From positions 186,001 through 250,000 of the forward strand of contig WTFG01000001.1 in assembly GCA_009835005.1 (NCBI GenBank): a stretch of DNA of 64,000 bases. Reading direction: 5' to 3'. Both the position numbers and the translations under genes were made by a program. Positions 2,151-46,116 of this stretch are shown here, piece after piece. The notes beneath the pieces were generated by a model. It saw nothing but the letters and a program-made list of their open reading frames with translations. It searched no databases and was not told the DNA's origin. This DNA comes from Flavobacteriaceae bacterium Ap0902 (GTDB lineage Bacteria > Bacteroidota > Bacteroidia > Flavobacteriales > Weeksellaceae). The stretch's first letter is position 1. Each line of letters begins with the position of its first letter.

Positions 2151-4238
2151 TTATTTTAATAATTGATATACGATAAATGCTGCAATATATGCTGTAGCAC
2201 TCATAAAAACAAGCTGTACCAAAGGCCATTTCCAAGTACCTGTCTCTTTCTTCACGATAGCCAAAGTACTAACGCATTGCATGGCAAAGGCATAAAATAA
2301 TAAAAGTGATGCACCTGTAGCTAAGTTAAAAACCTTGGTGCCATCACTTAACTCCTCATTGCGCATGCGTTGTACAATCTGAGTCTCTTCTTCCGTATCA
2401 GAGCCTATGCTATATATAGTTGCCATAGTCCCCACGAAAACCTCTCTCGCAGCAAAAGAAGATAATACCCCAATGCTTATTTTCCAGTCATAACCCAAGG
2501 GTCTAAATACAGGCTCTATGGCTTTTCCAATATGACCTAAAGCAGAATATTCTAATTTTTGAGATTCTAAATGGTGAGCAGCTTCTTGCGCTGTCCAATT
2601 ATTTTCCATGGTTTGTACTGCGACAATTTCTTCTGCATTTCGAAAGTTATCTGTAGGACCCCAAGAGCTCAATACCCATAAAATCACAGACACCGCAAGG
2701 ATGATTCTACCCGCTCCAAAGATAAAGGCTGATACTTTTTCCCATAATCCTAAAAAGAGATTACGCCAATGTGGCATATGGTAATCTGGCATCTCCATGA
2801 TTAGGTAGCTTTTGTAATGTGATTTCAAGAACTTCTTAAACACAAAAGCAAATACCAAGGCTGCTACTAAACCTAATATATACAGACCCATAAGCACAAG
2901 CCCTTGCAAATCTATTCCATATATTTTCTTAGAAGGTATTACCAGAGCAATCAAAATCGCATATACAGGTAACCTAGCGGAACATGTCATTAGCGGCGTC
3001 ACCAATACGGTAATCAAACGTTCTTTGACGTTTTCTATGTTTCTAGCTGCCATAATCCCTGGAATAGCACAGGCGGCACCAGACATAAGTGGTACTACGG
3101 ATTTACCATTAAGCCCAAAAGGGCGCATCCATTTATCCATTAAAAAGACCACACGGCTCATGTAACCAGTTTCTTCAAATAACAGCAAGAAGAAAATTAA
3201 TATGGTAATTTGCGGTACAAATATTACAACACCACCAATCCCAGGTATGATACCATCTGTAATTAAACTAGGTAGAGGTCCATCTCCTAATAAATCACGT
3301 GCTTGGTTTTGTAAATAAGCAAAAGTACTATCTATGAAGTCCATCGGAACTTCTGCCCAGGTATAAATCGCTTGAAAAGCGAGAAACAACAGACCGAAAA
3401 AGATAAGGTATCCCCAGAAAGGATGCGTAAGCACACGATCTAATTTATCTGTAATAGAGTCATCTTCTTGGGTATGAGCAGACATGACATTAGACACGAT
3501 TTTTTCTATCTCCTGATATCGTTGAATTGTCTCTGCAACTTGCAAGCGTGCTGGCACCAAGCTATATTGATCTTCTATAATTTTTAGGTTAGCTTCTTGG
3601 TCTTTGCTTAAGTGTCCTACTTTGGGCTGGGCTGCATATTGATAAGCCAAATAATCATGATCTATACCAAAGGTGACTTTTATATCATGAATAGCATTCG
3701 CATAAATCACAGGGACGTGGAATGCACTTTCCTTAATAGGAAAATCGTTTAAAATGGATTCTTTTAATTCATTTACGCCTTCACCTGTCCTAGCATTAGA
3801 ATAAATGATTCCAGAGGCTGTATAAGATTCTAAAACGGTTTTATTTAAAACTTTTCCAGATTTTTCTGCTTGATCCATCATATTCATAACGAATTTTACA
3901 GGGATGCCTAAATCCTGAACCTGGCGGAATAATAATAAACTTCTTTTAAGCCTAAGGGGGTGACCTATTACAAAAACTTTGTCTGGGAAATCTGGATGGT
4001 TAGGGTTGCTTAAAATATCAAAAACCACCTCTTCATCTGCAGATTTAGGATAGAGCGAGTAAGTCCCAGGAAAATCATATAACAGGACATCTTGACCATG
4101 GATGGTGAGTTTTCCAATCCTTTTGTCTACCGTGGTGCCTGGATAATTACCAATCCTTTGTTTTAAACCCGTTAGGCGATTAAACAAGGTAGATTTACCC
4201 ACATTTGGGTTTCCAATAAGAGCAACTTTTATAGGCAT
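2151..4238 (-). CDS. feoB: ferrous iron transporter B
   Basis: FeoB imports Fe(II) across the inner membrane. The N-terminal G domain shows the P-loop GNPNVGKS at residues 9-16, a GTT switch region, DFPG at about 55-58 (G3) and NMMD at about 120 (G4). It is followed by a helical spacer and a polytopic membrane domain from about residue 280 with Gate-type repeats (GAACAIPGIMAAR and SSFAAREVFVGT). The length of 695 residues is normal for Bacteroidota FeoB. The gene starts 1 base after the feoA stop and is followed by the Cys-rich partner, giving a compact three-gene operon. Confidence 0.96.
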   Translation of the reverse strand: MPIKVALIGNPNVGKSTLFNRLTGLKQRIGNYPGTTVDKRIGKLTIHGQDVLLYDFPGTYSLYPKSADEEVVFDILSNPNHPDFPDKVFVIGHPLRLKRSLLLFRQVQDLGIPVKFVMNMMDQAEKSGKVLNKTVLESYTASGIIYSNARTGEGVNELKESILNDFPIKESAFHVPVIYANAIHDIKVTFGIDHDYLAYQYAAQPKVGHLSKDQEANLKIIEDQYSLVPARLQVAETIQRYQEIEKIVSNVMSAHTQEDDSITDKLDRVLTHPFWGYLIFFGLLFLAFQAIYTWAEVPMDFIDSTFAYLQNQARDLLGDGPLPSLITDGIIPGIGGVVIFVPQITILIFFLLLFEETGYMSRVVFLMDKWMRPFGLNGKSVVPLMSGAACAIPGIMAARNIENVKERLITVLVTPLMTCSARLPVYAILIALVIPSKKIYGIDLQGLVLMGLYILGLVAALVFAFVFKKFLKSHYKSYLIMEMPDYHMPHWRNLFLGLWEKVSAFIFGAGRIILAVSVILWVLSSWGPTDNFRNAEEIVAVQTMENNWTAQEAAHHLESQKLEYSALGHIGKAIEPVFRPLGYDWKISIGVLSSFAAREVFVGTMATIYSIGSDTEEETQIVQRMRNEELSDGTKVFNLATGASLLLFYAFAMQCVSTLAIVKKETGTWKWPLVQLVFMSATAYIAAFIVYQLLK

Positions 4239-4239
4239 T

Positions 4240-4473
4240 TTATCCTTCTTTCTTCACTAGTACTTCACACGCCTCTGACTTACGTAGGGCTAACACACAC
4301 TTGGACTTGCATAATGATATACATATAGGACCATTAAATGGTGCGCTAGATTTATATTCAATATTCTCTCCTGGGATAAGCCCCAATTCCAAGAATTTTG
4401 CTGGAATATCCTCTGTACTAAAACCAAGAATTTTGGCTTTTTCACCTTTTCGTAAATCTGCTAAACTTGCCAA
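4240..4473 (-). CDS. feoA: ferrous iron transport protein A (FeoA, SH3-like)
   Basis: This small SH3-like cytosolic protein is required for FeoB activity. The core LADLRKGEKAKILGF followed by LELGLIPGE is the FeoA signature. No ATG exists. The frame is open from a TTG at 4497, but that codon lies inside a perfect TATCTTTG promoter box (4502-4495), so it cannot be the real start if the box is used. The next candidate, TTG at 4473, gives about 77 residues beginning just before ASLADL, the usual FeoA length. Start choice is inference; the family call is firm. Confidence 0.88.
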   Translation of the reverse strand: MASLADLRKGEKAKILGFSTEDIPAKFLELGLIPGENIEYKSSAPFNGPICISLCKSKCVLALRKSEACEVLVKKEG

Positions 4474-4494
4474 TTGTTTATGTTTTTGTAGAAA

Positions 4495-4502
4495 CAAAGA
4501 TA
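4495..4502 (-). promoter_or_regulatory. -7 promoter box of the feo operon
   Basis: Read on the minus strand the bases are TATCTTTG, an exact match to the Bacteroidota -7 consensus TAnnTTTG. The AT-rich imperfect palindrome 4499-4519 overlaps it and could be a Fur-type operator. Confidence 0.5.
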
Positions 4503-4588
4503 ATAATTTTTAATTAATCTAAATAATTATATCGAATGAAAAATTTGTACACTAGATTTTGTATCTTTTGGGATTATATACCTATGAT

Positions 4589-5134
4589 ATGAGAAAATTT
4601 ATTTTTATAACCTTTATAGTTAGTCTATTCCTCACCAGTTGCAATGGTTCTGGAGACGACACTTCATCTGATAGCAAGAATTTAAAAGAGAAGATGGAGC
4701 ATAATGATTGGAGCAAAAGAAGGTATGCATTTAAACCAGAAGATGATTTGCGCGTAGCTCATACCTACTTAGCTGTATATTCTGAAATCTATGCGCGCAA
4801 AGAGTCCAGAACCTATCCTTTGACAATTACTGTTAGCATTAGAAACACCAGTCTCAAGGACTCTGTGTTTGTCAAAAAATCGGAATATTATGATACCCAT
4901 GGGGTGTTAATTAACACTTATTTTGATGAACCTATTTTTGTGGCTCCTATGGAAACTGTAGAGATCATCGTAGAGGAAGACCATGAACAGGGAGGCACGG
5001 GAGGTAACTTCATATTCCATTGGGCGACCAAGAACCTAGATACCAAACCATTGTTTGAGGCAGTTATGATATCTGCGAGTGGACAGCAAGGTATATCTTT
5101 TACCACCCAAGGTGTGGATTTAGAAAATTATTAA
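4589..5134 (+). CDS. DUF3124 lipoprotein
   Basis: Starting at 4589 the product begins MRKFIFITFIVSLFLTSCNG, a textbook lipoprotein signal with lipobox TSC. An upstream in-frame ATG at 4559 would only add ten residues before the signal and is unlikely. The remainder (from LRVAHTYLAVYS, through TITVSIRNTS, to EGGTGGNF-like loops and the ISFTTQG end) matches the DUF3124 domain of small exported proteins of unknown role. Here it is anchored to a membrane. The next gene, another small lipoprotein, starts 30 bases downstream on the same strand. Confidence 0.8.
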   Translation: MRKFIFITFIVSLFLTSCNGSGDDTSSDSKNLKEKMEHNDWSKRRYAFKPEDDLRVAHTYLAVYSEIYARKESRTYPLTITVSIRNTSLKDSVFVKKSEYYDTHGVLINTYFDEPIFVAPMETVEIIVEEDHEQGGTGGNFIFHWATKNLDTKPLFEAVMISASGQQGISFTTQGVDLENY

Positions 5135-16802: not shown

Positions 16803-17435
16803 ATGATGTTTTTACAAGATACAGAACCTTTTCCACCCGTTACCTTAGCAGATAAAGAAGGTTGCTTAGCGTTTAGCCTTAACTTATCTATGCCTAGGCT
16901 TATAGAAGCATATCACAAAGGTATTTTCCCATGGTATAATGAAAATGAACCCGTAATATGGTGGTCACCAGACCCACGGATGGTTCTTTTTCCAGAAGAA
17001 TTGAGGGTTAGCAAATCAATGAAAAAGGTTCTAAGGGATCAGACTTTTAAAGTTACATTCAATCTAGATTTTGCGCGTGTTATAAGAGAATGTAGAGCCA
17101 TACCACGTACAGGGCAAAACGGAACATGGATTACAGATGAAATTGTTAGTCATTACCAAAATTTACATGAATTAGGTCTTGCTCATAGTGTTGAGGTATG
17201 GAATAAAGAGGGTGAGCTTGTAGGAGGGTTATATGGAGTTTGGATTAAACGCGTATTTTGTGGTGAAAGCATGTTCGCTAAAGAATCGAATGCTAGCAAA
17301 GCAGGTTTTATAACGTTTGTAGAAAATTTTAAAAATGATTTGGATATCATAGATTGCCAAATTTATACGAAACATTTAGCATCTTTAGGTGCAAAATTAA
17401 TCCCAAGAGATAAGTATCTATCGTATCTAGTCTAA
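16803..17435 (+). CDS. aat: leucyl/phenylalanyl-tRNA--protein transferase
   Basis: Aat attaches Leu or Phe to N-terminal Arg or Lys of proteins, marking them for ClpS/ClpAP in the N-degron pathway. Family blocks are clear: GIFPWYNENEPVIWWSPDPRMVLFP, TWITDEIVSHYQNLHELG, HSVEVWNKEGELVGGLYG, and FCGESMFAKESNASKAG, which forms the catalytic pocket. The length of 210 residues is normal. A second ATG directly follows the first. It follows a terminator at 2 bases, and its own terminator at 17454-17490 is shared with the converging cysteine genes. Confidence 0.95.
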   Translation: MMFLQDTEPFPPVTLADKEGCLAFSLNLSMPRLIEAYHKGIFPWYNENEPVIWWSPDPRMVLFPEELRVSKSMKKVLRDQTFKVTFNLDFARVIRECRAIPRTGQNGTWITDEIVSHYQNLHELGLAHSVEVWNKEGELVGGLYGVWIKRVFCGESMFAKESNASKAGFITFVENFKNDLDIIDCQIYTKHLASLGAKLIPRDKYLSYLV

Positions 17436-43422: not shown

Positions 43423-44010
43423 TTAATTGACTCCCTCCCAGAAACTCCATTCTGCACCGTTAAAAACAGCCAGCCTACTATTCTTTTTAACATAGACAAT
43501 CATTCCTGCTGTTGGGTTTATGATATCGGAAAACTCATTAACCCTAGGCAAGACCATCGCCTTAGGATTGTTATCTGCATCAGGTGTTTCTAAAATCAAA
43601 ATACCTTCTACGTCAGAAGTTTCTGCACCTATAATTACGCATGCATTTGGTGAATCGGCAAAGTTAGTTGGATTGGAAAATGCTACATTGGGAGTATCTG
43701 CATTATTAGATAAATCTATCCACATAGATTGTATCGAGTTCGTATCAGAAGGTGTATTAGGCGTGCTGCTGCTAGAAAGTTTAACCTTTTGCGTACTGGC
43801 ATCAAATACTAATGTACCGACAGGCGCATTTGTTGCACTACTTTCATTGGTAATCCACGGTAGAATTAATCCTAAATTTTCTGCAGGAGCATTGGTACCT
43901 AATTCTAAACTAACGTAATCATTGGATGGTATTGCTCCGATTCCTACTCCTACTTGTGCAAAAAGGGAATAACTGCTTCCTAATAATAATATGTATAATA
44001 ACTTTTTCAT
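43423..44010 (-). CDS. exported surface protein with two LPR/VYD-type motifs
   Basis: Starting at ATG 44010 (MKKLLYILLLGSSYSLFAQ) the protein has a clean signal peptide; the frame extends upstream into the preceding gene but that is not needed. Two copies of a motif common in Bacteroidota tail-fibre-like or adhesin-like proteins are visible: LGLILPWIT...VGTLVFD and AMVLPRVNEF...AGMIVYV...FNGAEW (generally LPRMT, 15-20 residues, GMVVYDT, then a YNG-W strand). Function is unknown; a cell-surface structural or binding role is inferred. It starts 10 bases after the preceding gene on the same strand. Confidence 0.75.
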   Translation of the reverse strand: MKKLLYILLLGSSYSLFAQVGVGIGAIPSNDYVSLELGTNAPAENLGLILPWITNESSATNAPVGTLVFDASTQKVKLSSSSTPNTPSDTNSIQSMWIDLSNNADTPNVAFSNPTNFADSPNACVIIGAETSDVEGILILETPDADNNPKAMVLPRVNEFSDIINPTAGMIVYVKKNSRLAVFNGAEWSFWEGVN

Positions 44011-44020
44011 AGTTGTAAAT

Positions 44021-45142
44021 TTATTCATCACAAGATGGTTGTGTATAACATTTAAAAGATTGATTGTCATATATCTTTAAACAGTTAACAGAAGTATCAT
44101 AAACCGCCATACCTTCTACTGCTTTGCCATCTGTGACAATTTTATCAATTTGAATTGTTGTCATTCTATTGATTACAAACCCTTTATCATCTGATTCTAA
44201 AGCTAAATAGGCTCCCTCTCTTTCCTTAGGCCAAATATGATCTACATTTCTTTGTTTAGAGGTAATCCCTACAGGGGTAGCAAAACCGTTACCCGAGGTT
44301 CCAGGTTTATAACACTCTACTGGACAAACCTCAAAATGAAACTCAAGACCATCTACTTTACCAAAACTACTTGTAAAAGATCCTATTCCTGTAAAAGTAA
44401 ATGTAATACTTTCTATAGGACTCGGTGAACTTATAAGAATACTCCCTGCACCAGAGCCATTCTCGGGATTATTAGGGTCTATTTCATAATAATTACCCGT
44501 GGGTTCATTAGCAGTTCTATAAAAAGTATTGTTTTTAACATTGAAAACACTATTTCCACTTAGTTTGGTAAGTGTAGTATTAGGCGTTTTTAAACTGAAT
44601 ATGGCACTATTCCCATATAACTCATTATTATCTACGCTGTATGCCCCCCCTAGTCTATCTACATTTAAAATAACACTTTTAACAGGTTTACTAAAAGTAA
44701 AGGTCAGATCCCTTTCGTATAGATTATTGTCATAATTAACATTTCTACCAAATATTGCATTGAACTTAAAAGTTGGTTCAAAAGTTAAATTAGGCGTATA
44801 GAATGGATATCCTGGTCCAGATAAATCTCCTGTATTATTAGTAGAAGAAGTTGCGTTGAGAAAACCATTTCCATAATCGGCCCCATTATCAGTTGCATAA
44901 TTAACTTCTGTATAAGTTGCACTCGGCGAATTCATTTCAACATTAATTGAAGTGGATGTCCCAGAACCAATTACTGTCTTTGCAGATGCGTCAGAATACC
45001 AACCACCAGAATTAACAATAGTCCATTGCTTAGATGGATTGAGACTAGAACATGTGGGAGACTGTGAGTATCCATAACTGGTAATTATAATTAATGAGAG
45101 TAATGAAACTACATTTTTAGTAAAAATAAAAAATTTATTCAT
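44021..45142 (-). CDS. exported surface protein, C-terminal VYDT motif
   Basis: The 373-residue protein has signal peptide ending GYSQ. The N-terminal about 270 residues are Ser/Thr/Asn-rich and beta-strand-like (DLTFTFSKPVKSVILNVDRL, PIESITFTFTGIG), resembling an extracellular jelly-roll. The C-terminal part has the motif GFVINRMTT...EGMAVYDTSVNCLKIYDNQSFKCY, the same type as in the gene downstream. Six cysteines cluster there. No sorting domain is seen. The promoter region is spanned by a perfect 17-bp inverted repeat, pointing to tight regulation. A surface or appendage role is inferred. Confidence 0.75.
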   Translation of the reverse strand: MNKFFIFTKNVVSLLSLIIITSYGYSQSPTCSSLNPSKQWTIVNSGGWYSDASAKTVIGSGTSTSINVEMNSPSATYTEVNYATDNGADYGNGFLNATSSTNNTGDLSGPGYPFYTPNLTFEPTFKFNAIFGRNVNYDNNLYERDLTFTFSKPVKSVILNVDRLGGAYSVDNNELYGNSAIFSLKTPNTTLTKLSGNSVFNVKNNTFYRTANEPTGNYYEIDPNNPENGSGAGSILISSPSPIESITFTFTGIGSFTSSFGKVDGLEFHFEVCPVECYKPGTSGNGFATPVGITSKQRNVDHIWPKEREGAYLALESDDKGFVINRMTTIQIDKIVTDGKAVEGMAVYDTSVNCLKIYDNQSFKCYTQPSCDE

Positions 45143-45145
45143 ATA

Positions 45146-45192
45146 ATTTATGTTTTATCAAATATATATTTATTTTTTGATAAAACATAAAT
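45146..45192. promoter_or_regulatory. 17-bp perfect inverted repeat over the promoter of the surface-protein pair
   Basis: ATTTATGTTTTATCAAA (45146-45162) and its exact reverse complement (45176-45192) are separated by 13 bases. A minus-strand TATATTTG box (45166-45159) lies at the junction of arm and spacer, just upstream of the ATG at 45142. It could be a repressor operator or a 5' hairpin. Confidence 0.75.
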
Positions 45193-45261: not shown

Positions 45262-45411
45262 CGCTATTAGCCCTGATTGGCATGGAAATCCTTTTGCCAA
45301 TATCCGCAAACAAATAACGAGGAAAAAGAACGACCAGAGGAAGTTCCTTTTTCTAGATTATTTGTAAGGATAGTTGTAAAAGATTGGAATAGAAAGCAGG
45401 TTCTTGGCTCT
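45262..45411. ncRNA. long nested-hairpin non-coding element
   Basis: Outer arms TAGCCCTGATTGGCATGGAA and GATTGGAATAGAAAGCAGG...TTGGCT can pair as AGCC/GGCT, CTG/CAG and CTTTT/AAAAG. Inside lies a second long hairpin: CAAATAA (from 45311) with TTATTTG (ending 45364), and AGGAAAAAGAAC with GTTCCTTTTTCT. I recall similar flank pairs with variable centres between genes of Flavobacteriia, but cannot verify this. The strand of any transcript is unknown. No protein reading is convincing. Confidence 0.45.
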
Positions 45412-45471
45412 TTATAATCCTTATGAAATTGGATAAGTTTTTGCTCCTTTAACAATGAAAAATCAAATGAT

Positions 45472-46116
45472 ATGAGAGCAATTGTGATTGGTGGAACGGG
45501 TGCTACGGGCATGCCTTTGGTGAGTCAATTATTGGCTGATAAGGATATTACAGCGGTGGTTTCTCTGGTGAGAAATCCGAGCAGAGAGCCACACGAAAAG
45601 TTGAATGAAGTCAAAGTGGATTTTGAAAATTTACAGGACTATGCAGACATCATTTATGGGGATTTGGCGTTTTCTTGTTTGGGAACAACGCTGAAGGATG
45701 CAGGTGGTAAGAAGGAACAATGGCATATCGATTATGATTATGTGCATGCGTTTGCCCAGATTGCTAAAGGAAATGAGGTGCCAACTTTTGTACTCTTATC
45801 GGCTCAGGGAGCGGATGCGAATGCTTTCTTTTTCTATAGTAAATTAAAAGGTAAACTAGAAGATGCAATTAAAAAATTGGATTTTGAGCATTTGGTTATT
45901 GCAAGACCGAGTATGCTAATCCGTCCGAATTCTAAGAGAATGGGTGAGAGAATTGGGGTGGTTATGCTAAACTTCTTTAATAAACTGGACTTGTTTAAAA
46001 AACAACAGCCATTACATGTGGAAAAAGTGGCTTATGCACTACGTATTGCTGGTAAAAGCGTTTTGGAAGTTGTAGAAATAATAGGTGTAAAAGATATTCT
46101 CGCGTTAAATAAATGA
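45472..46116 (+). CDS. NAD(P)-binding Rossmann protein, HTATIP2/TIP30-like
   Basis: This 214-residue atypical short-chain dehydrogenase has the nucleotide-binding motif VIGGTGATGMPLV near the N-terminus (residues 3-16) and DLAFSCLGTTLKDAGGKKEQ. The catalytic-type region is VLLSAQGADANAFFFYSKLKGKLE, with a Tyr-x3-Lys pair (YSKLK). It ends with HLVIARPSMLIRP. This pattern matches the small NAD(P)H-binding proteins related to TIP30 and oxidoreductases of unknown substrate. It stands alone on this strand and is closed by a 15-bp terminator stem. Confidence 0.88.
   Translation: MRAIVIGGTGATGMPLVSQLLADKDITAVVSLVRNPSREPHEKLNEVKVDFENLQDYADIIYGDLAFSCLGTTLKDAGGKKEQWHIDYDYVHAFAQIAKGNEVPTFVLLSAQGADANAFFFYSKLKGKLEDAIKKLDFEHLVIARPSMLIRPNSKRMGERIGVVMLNFFNKLDLFKKQQPLHVEKVAYALRIAGKSVLEVVEIIGVKDILALNK

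Follow-up and report, generated by a model that had tools for sequence, protein, structure and literature searches.

Long-form Flavo-1, a dispersed hairpin family of Flavobacteriales whose copy pattern suggests a small mobile repeat

The intergenic element described here lies in a 64,000-nucleotide stretch of the genome of Flavobacteriaceae bacterium Ap0902 (this whole stretch is called the window below) and is one of more than 40 copies, whose pattern suggests a small mobile hairpin repeat that is selectively kept at some sites rather than an ordinary sRNA gene. A scan of the whole window assigned the element to Flavo-1 of Rfam (RF01705) at 46.8 bits (E 6.3e-7), above the curated gathering cut-off of 42; apart from it, one tRNA was the only RNA match in the 64 kb. 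The Flavo-1 RNA motif was published in 2010 with no known function (Weinberg et al., PMC2864571). The best explanation of the data presented below, and in our judgement a probable one, is that long-form Flavo-1 is a non-autonomous dispersed repeat that is recognized as a folded single strand and moved in trans. The relevant features of the window are listed here; R1 is our own covariance model, built from 15 copies of the host genome (alignment A3).

45268..45410, plus strand: Flavo-1 element, long form (R1, 152.8 bits, E 9.9e-40)
45265-45407, plus strand: Flavo-1 element, Rfam limits (RF01705, 46.8 bits)
45268..45295, plus strand: 5' arm TAGCCCTGATTGGCATGGAAATCCTTTT, outer stem and conserved internal-loop section, kept in all copies
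45311..45364, plus strand: inner hairpin with a variable A/T-rich stem, the variable center; stem changes among copies are compensated
45324..45351, plus strand: conserved apical motif around GAACGACCAGAGGAAGTTC, consensus AAAAGAGCGACCRGMGGAAGCTCCTTTT (alignment A3 and exact consensus in at least 117 contig stretches)
45378..45410, plus strand: 3' arm AAAAGATTGGAATAGAAAGCAGGTTCTTGGCTC, partner of the 5' arm, pairing with covariation
44021-45142, minus strand: gene on one flank of the element, no Pfam match
45472-46116, plus strand: NAD(P)H-binding protein gene on the other flank

An 81-aa open reading frame that overlaps the element on the minus strand (45267-45512) has no Pfam match. Two genes adjoining the window copy (43423-45142) have homologues adjoining another Flavo-1 copy of the same genome, L068. 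Just upstream of the minus-strand gene at 44021-45142, positions 45146-45192 hold an inverted repeat of two perfectly matching 17-bp arms that are 13 bases apart (ATTTATGTTTTATCAAA / TTTGATAAAACATAAAT).

Most Flavo-1 copies, including the one in the window, are of the long form (ca. 143 nt), which consists of an outer stem, an internal-loop section in which GATTG..TGGAAATCC faces GATTGGAA..AAAGC, a variable A/T-rich stem and the apical motif AAAAGAGCGACCRGMGGAAGCTCCTTTT. The parts conserved across copies are CCTG/CAGG, the internal-loop section GATTG..GGAAATCC / GATTGGAA..AAAGC, CTTTT/AAAAG and the apical hairpin, which in the window copy has a compensated GAAC/GTTC form, whereas the outermost AGCC/GGCT pairing differs between copies. 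The exact apical consensus was found in at least 117 genome-contig stretches from Flavobacterium and other Bacteroidota, to which nearly all named loci carrying it belong, and nearly all of the stretches inspected are flanked by Flavo-1-like arms. A gapped pattern scan of genome contigs returned no match. Between the same arms, the center can be of the apical GAGCGACC type, a variant of GAGCGACC, of an unrelated ACGACGGCTGGGGTATGG type or missing altogether, the centerless copies being 75-87 nt long. The first-pass annotation had proposed that similar flank pairs with different centers occur in other Flavobacteriia; these are Flavo-1, and they recur in the host genome and its two sister species as well as in 107 of the 121 Flavobacterium genomes sampled (14 are without it). 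In the Rfam model, which is 76 positions long, the interior counts as an insertion, and the conserved apical motif of the long form is absent from the model.

The outer arms read in the first-pass annotation (AGCC/GGCT, CTG/CAG and CTTTT/AAAAG) and its inner 54-base hairpin (45311-45364) are indeed found where it had placed them. The minimum free energy of the window element as RNA is -40.0 kcal/mol, compared to -29.9 +/- 3.5 for 200 dinucleotide shuffles (z -2.85); the fold beats 198 of the shuffles, the other 2 folding as well. Covariation, one of the checks proposed in that annotation, turned out to be overwhelming: in 98 aligned matches, two-sided changes occur at 44/44 pairs, 91.2% of pairing cells can pair (63.1% after shuffling), and the covariation score is 0.660, as opposed to 0.168 +/- 0.006 for shuffled and 0.106-0.150 for slid controls, in an alignment that had been fitted to the tested structure. 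G-U cells outnumber A-C cells by 65 to 14 in the 35 well-aligned pairs. The corresponding numbers are 27 and 3 in 28 vertically inherited copies at the miaA site, aligned without the model, the pairs being predicted on the same strand as counted, which helps G-U. This excess shows that selection acts on folding of the Rfam strand. The internal loops are conserved, purine-rich and unpaired, and conserved loops rich in purines are a typical feature of RNA as well.

The strong covariation, the excess of G-U over A-C on one strand and the conserved unpaired purines would all be expected if each copy were an sRNA gene, as Rfam has it, perhaps spread in a SINE-like manner through an RNA intermediate and binding a protein via its loops and tip. 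Flavo-1 was also graded as a probable RNA by Weinberg et al. in 2010 (PMC2864571). We nevertheless find this alternative doubtful. G-U is scarce, making up 2.1% of pair cells versus 7.3% in 31 tRNAs from the same sequence collection, a low share for an RNA, though the yardstick is tRNA alone; further objections, from transcription, orientation and gene content, are given below.

Other copies of the flanks, another check named in the first-pass annotation, proved to be numerous. BLAST with a 176-base query retrieved 12 clear homologues from the same 2.6-Mb genome, and R1 matches number at least 43 in this genome and at least 22 and 47 in two sister species (80 candidates were scored per genome, and the counts are lower bounds). 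The 5'-arm core pattern GATWGNNNTGGAWATCC occurs 43 times in the host genome at no more than one mismatch, compared to 0 for a reversed control; 30 of the occurrences are exact, and nearly all of these are Flavo-1 copies. With the Rfam model, 5 matches were obtained when 150 of 516 candidates in the host genome were scored, against 43 with the dedicated model, and Rfam's own cut-off recovers copies in just 5 of 18 loci tested. Other genomes of the host's family carry from 0 to ca. 50 copies, several having none. No match was found in a search for phage or plasmid carriage of Flavo-1, and eight viral-contig matches to the tip motif were rejected as Flavo-1 copies, their arms being absent.

In the host genome, subfamilies with 95-98.6% identity occupy unrelated sites (98.6% between L056 and L058, 95-97% among L073, L075, L079 and L080), and none of the 29 host copies analyzed sits at a site occupied by any of the 13 copies compared from the sister species. 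Among three Flavobacterium species with DNA that is roughly 80-90% identical, one and the same intergenic site contains Flavo-1, a different repeat or nothing, and a second orthologous intergenic site has Flavo-1 in one species and lacks it in another. Near-identical copies at unrelated sites, the lack of sites shared with the sister species and presence or absence at the same intergenic site together mean that Flavo-1 disperses and that its sites turn over between species. Of the "dispersed RNA or mobile cassette family" suggested in the first-pass annotation, the dispersed family is supported overall, and "mobile family" is better backed than "RNA". The closest relative of the window copy in its own genome is 89% identical by BLAST, so the window copy is not part of the newest burst. 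Its empty site was sought in both sister species; gene order at the corresponding place is conserved in neither.

Several observations were made at individual copies. The different repeat, TTAGCCACAGATT...AATCTGTGGCAAAA, fills at L140:about 16990-17080 (G146:C13, ~57000) the site that holds Flavo-1 in a related species. In one recent subfamily (L073, L074, L075, L076, L077, L079, L080 and L082), degenerate 7-base tandem arrays always precede the copy, extending up to ca. 150 bp upstream. They consist of CCWTAAA and then CTTGATA-like units and differ in sequence and length from copy to copy, while the elements themselves are mostly more than 90% identical. One split copy (L385:about 2330-5000, G000:C23) was considered as an autonomous element carrying its own gene between the arms; this was rejected, the insert looking like a restriction-modification cassette. 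By eye, the genes of the insert resemble those for a helix-turn-helix regulator and a C5 DNA methyltransferase, the latter seemingly broken over more than one frame. The insert is bounded by a directly repeated sequence of ca. 70 bp, which points to insertion with a long target duplication.

The size of the element (143 bp), its lack of coding capacity, its recent dispersed subfamilies and its complementary ends would also suit a MITE that belongs to a conventional DDE insertion sequence and is moved via terminal inverted repeats. We regard this as highly improbable, since the outer stem is free to vary in sequence yet stays complementary (AGCC/GGCT, GCGGC/GCCGC, GCGAT/ATCGC), a fixed terminal repeat is absent, and no target-site duplication was recognized around Flavo-1 copies. 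With an outer stem that varies while remaining complementary, recognition would depend on shape, loops and tip, and not on a terminal repeat.

For a non-autonomous repeat moved in trans, the functional state would be the Rfam strand on its own, forming an imperfect nested hairpin whose internal loops and tip are conserved. Recognition of this hairpin may take place on single-stranded DNA, as it does for hairpins of the REP/BIME or IS200/IS605 type, and a putative trans-acting enzyme would copy the element to new intergenic sites, where some settled copies would since have been kept for a local role.

The Y1 (RAYT) transposase was considered for the role of this enzyme. Across relatives, Y1 co-occurs with Flavo-1 (15/19 versus 3/21 genomes, p 8e-5; p 0.0017 within the family and 0.054 when the comparison is limited to genomes no smaller than 2.5 Mb). 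Despite this co-occurrence, Y1 was rejected as the mover here, since it is absent from the host genome and from the sister species with 47 copies (G002), and Flavo-1 lies beside none of the Y1 genes in 12 Y1 loci of relatives. Apart from sites passed on by vertical descent, miaA and adk among them, Flavo-1 has no recurrent neighbor genes, and no transposase is among its recurrent neighbors. A reverse transcriptase (RVT_1) is likewise absent from the host genome, which speaks against the sRNA alternative and leaves a SINE-like retroelement route with no RVT_1 of the host genome to act in trans; this route was rejected. With both Y1 and RVT_1 missing from the host genome, the search yielded no candidate for the mobilizing enzyme.

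A separate observation concerns the Y1/RAYT-type genes of relatives, beside which we found sub-threshold matches to RF01687, the Acido-Lenti-1 "sRNA" (L284:1944-1988, L289:1281-1390 and L290:1396-2058), several per locus in two of the three loci. Acido-Lenti-1 may be a REP repeat instead of an RNA.

Some sites are common to several Flavobacterium species, one between purB-like and KefB-like genes and another 6 bp from the miaA start codon (gene names were taken from translations). The miaA-site copy is kept in 28 Flavobacterium loci, and the identity of the element averages 92%, compared to 70% for third-codon positions of miaA and 69-82% for the downstream flank, in a set that is biased toward conserved copies because its loci were found through either the tip motif, itself conserved, or a high score with the model. 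Since the element changes less than third-codon positions, selection must act on some copies; an insertion that was merely decaying would show a different pattern.

Nearly all copies examined in the host genome and the sister species are intergenic, the exceptions being overlaps with a small number of frames that are short or spurious, and many end ca. 20 bp or less from a stop codon. Together with the 6-bp distance from miaA, this is what one can expect of a cis-acting mRNA element, that is, a terminator, 3'-end stabilizer or leader on the transcripts of flanking genes. This possibility appears improbable to us: all four arrangements of neighboring genes are seen around the copies, the hairpin has no T-run after it, and the folded strand is usually the non-coding one. 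With respect to co-directional neighbors, it is antisense in 18 cases and sense in 7 (42 copies, host genome and sister) and in 16 and 7 cases, respectively, at independent sites elsewhere (p 0.09 alone), so readthrough from a neighbor would usually transcribe the wrong strand. The same antisense tendency speaks against the sRNA alternative.

No upstream sequence common to the copies, such as a possible promoter, was found; the copies begin at the hairpin. In the F. psychrophilum transcriptome, Flavo-1 matches are sense or antisense to transcribed regions indifferently, and many lie outside them (PMC9723704), which argues against a uniform Flavo-1 transcript. Of the 150 copies in three complete genomes, which represent two families, 101 have their folded strand opposite the G-rich (leading) one (p 2.6e-5; p <0.03 in each genome), replication arms having been placed by eye from 20 skew samples per genome with the hits already known. 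These strand biases are modest and mutually confounded, genes being mostly on the leading strand. Taken together, the antisense and lagging-strand tendencies and the rarity of G-U favor a hairpin acting at the DNA level over an sRNA, although they are not proof.

With Rfam Flavo-1, the window element shares the arms, the internal loops, a score above the curated cut-off and the bacterial group; it differs by the conserved apical hairpin of the long form, and where the Rfam label is sRNA, the present data point to a mobile repeat. Like the RAYT-mobilized REP/BIME/REPIN elements, Flavo-1 is intergenic, multi-copy, non-autonomous and long-persisting, with a strand-specific imperfect hairpin. In contrast to them, it is several times longer, its arms vary by compensation and its host genome has no Y1. 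REP is described as a short (20-40 bp) tagged palindrome (PMC3733652), a size that the 143-nt nested hairpin exceeds, and the repeat-flanked transposase gene of REP/RAYT systems was not seen at any of the 12 Y1 loci.

Like integron attC sites, Flavo-1 is an imperfect nested hairpin in which some unpaired bases are conserved, the terminal structure varies and one of the two strands is selected. In contrast to attC, its outer ends form no fixed core site, and the copies whose surroundings were examined stand alone next to housekeeping genes and do not border cassettes in an array. MITEs and RUP- or BOX-type repeats share its size, intergenic dispersal and near-identical subfamilies, whereas Flavo-1 lacks a fixed terminal inverted repeat and a recognized target duplication and conserves structure rather than sequence.

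No function or mobility of Flavo-1 is described in the literature surveyed, though earlier remarks on its repetitiveness may exist. Within this scope, the apical motif, the dispersal within genomes with turnover of sites, the selection acting on a copy at a fixed place and the evidence on strands are, as far as shown here, new. Only tentatively do we extend the proposal to the whole family, in which case Flavo-1 might be a widespread class of trans-mobilized single-strand hairpins of Flavobacteriales, not an sRNA and distinct from REP/RAYT, attC and MITEs, with a putative enzyme reading tip and loops and with copies repeatedly domesticated, as at miaA.

Flavo-1 has been classed as an sRNA, with no function, ever since its publication in 2010, and its dispersal, the turnover of its sites, the mostly non-transcribed folded strand and the apical motif change which experiments are fitting. 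The findings open a testable search for the factor that recognizes or moves Flavo-1. They also carry a warning, to which the weak Acido-Lenti-1 matches beside Y1 transposases may be compared: Rfam "sRNA" families can be mobile DNA repeats.
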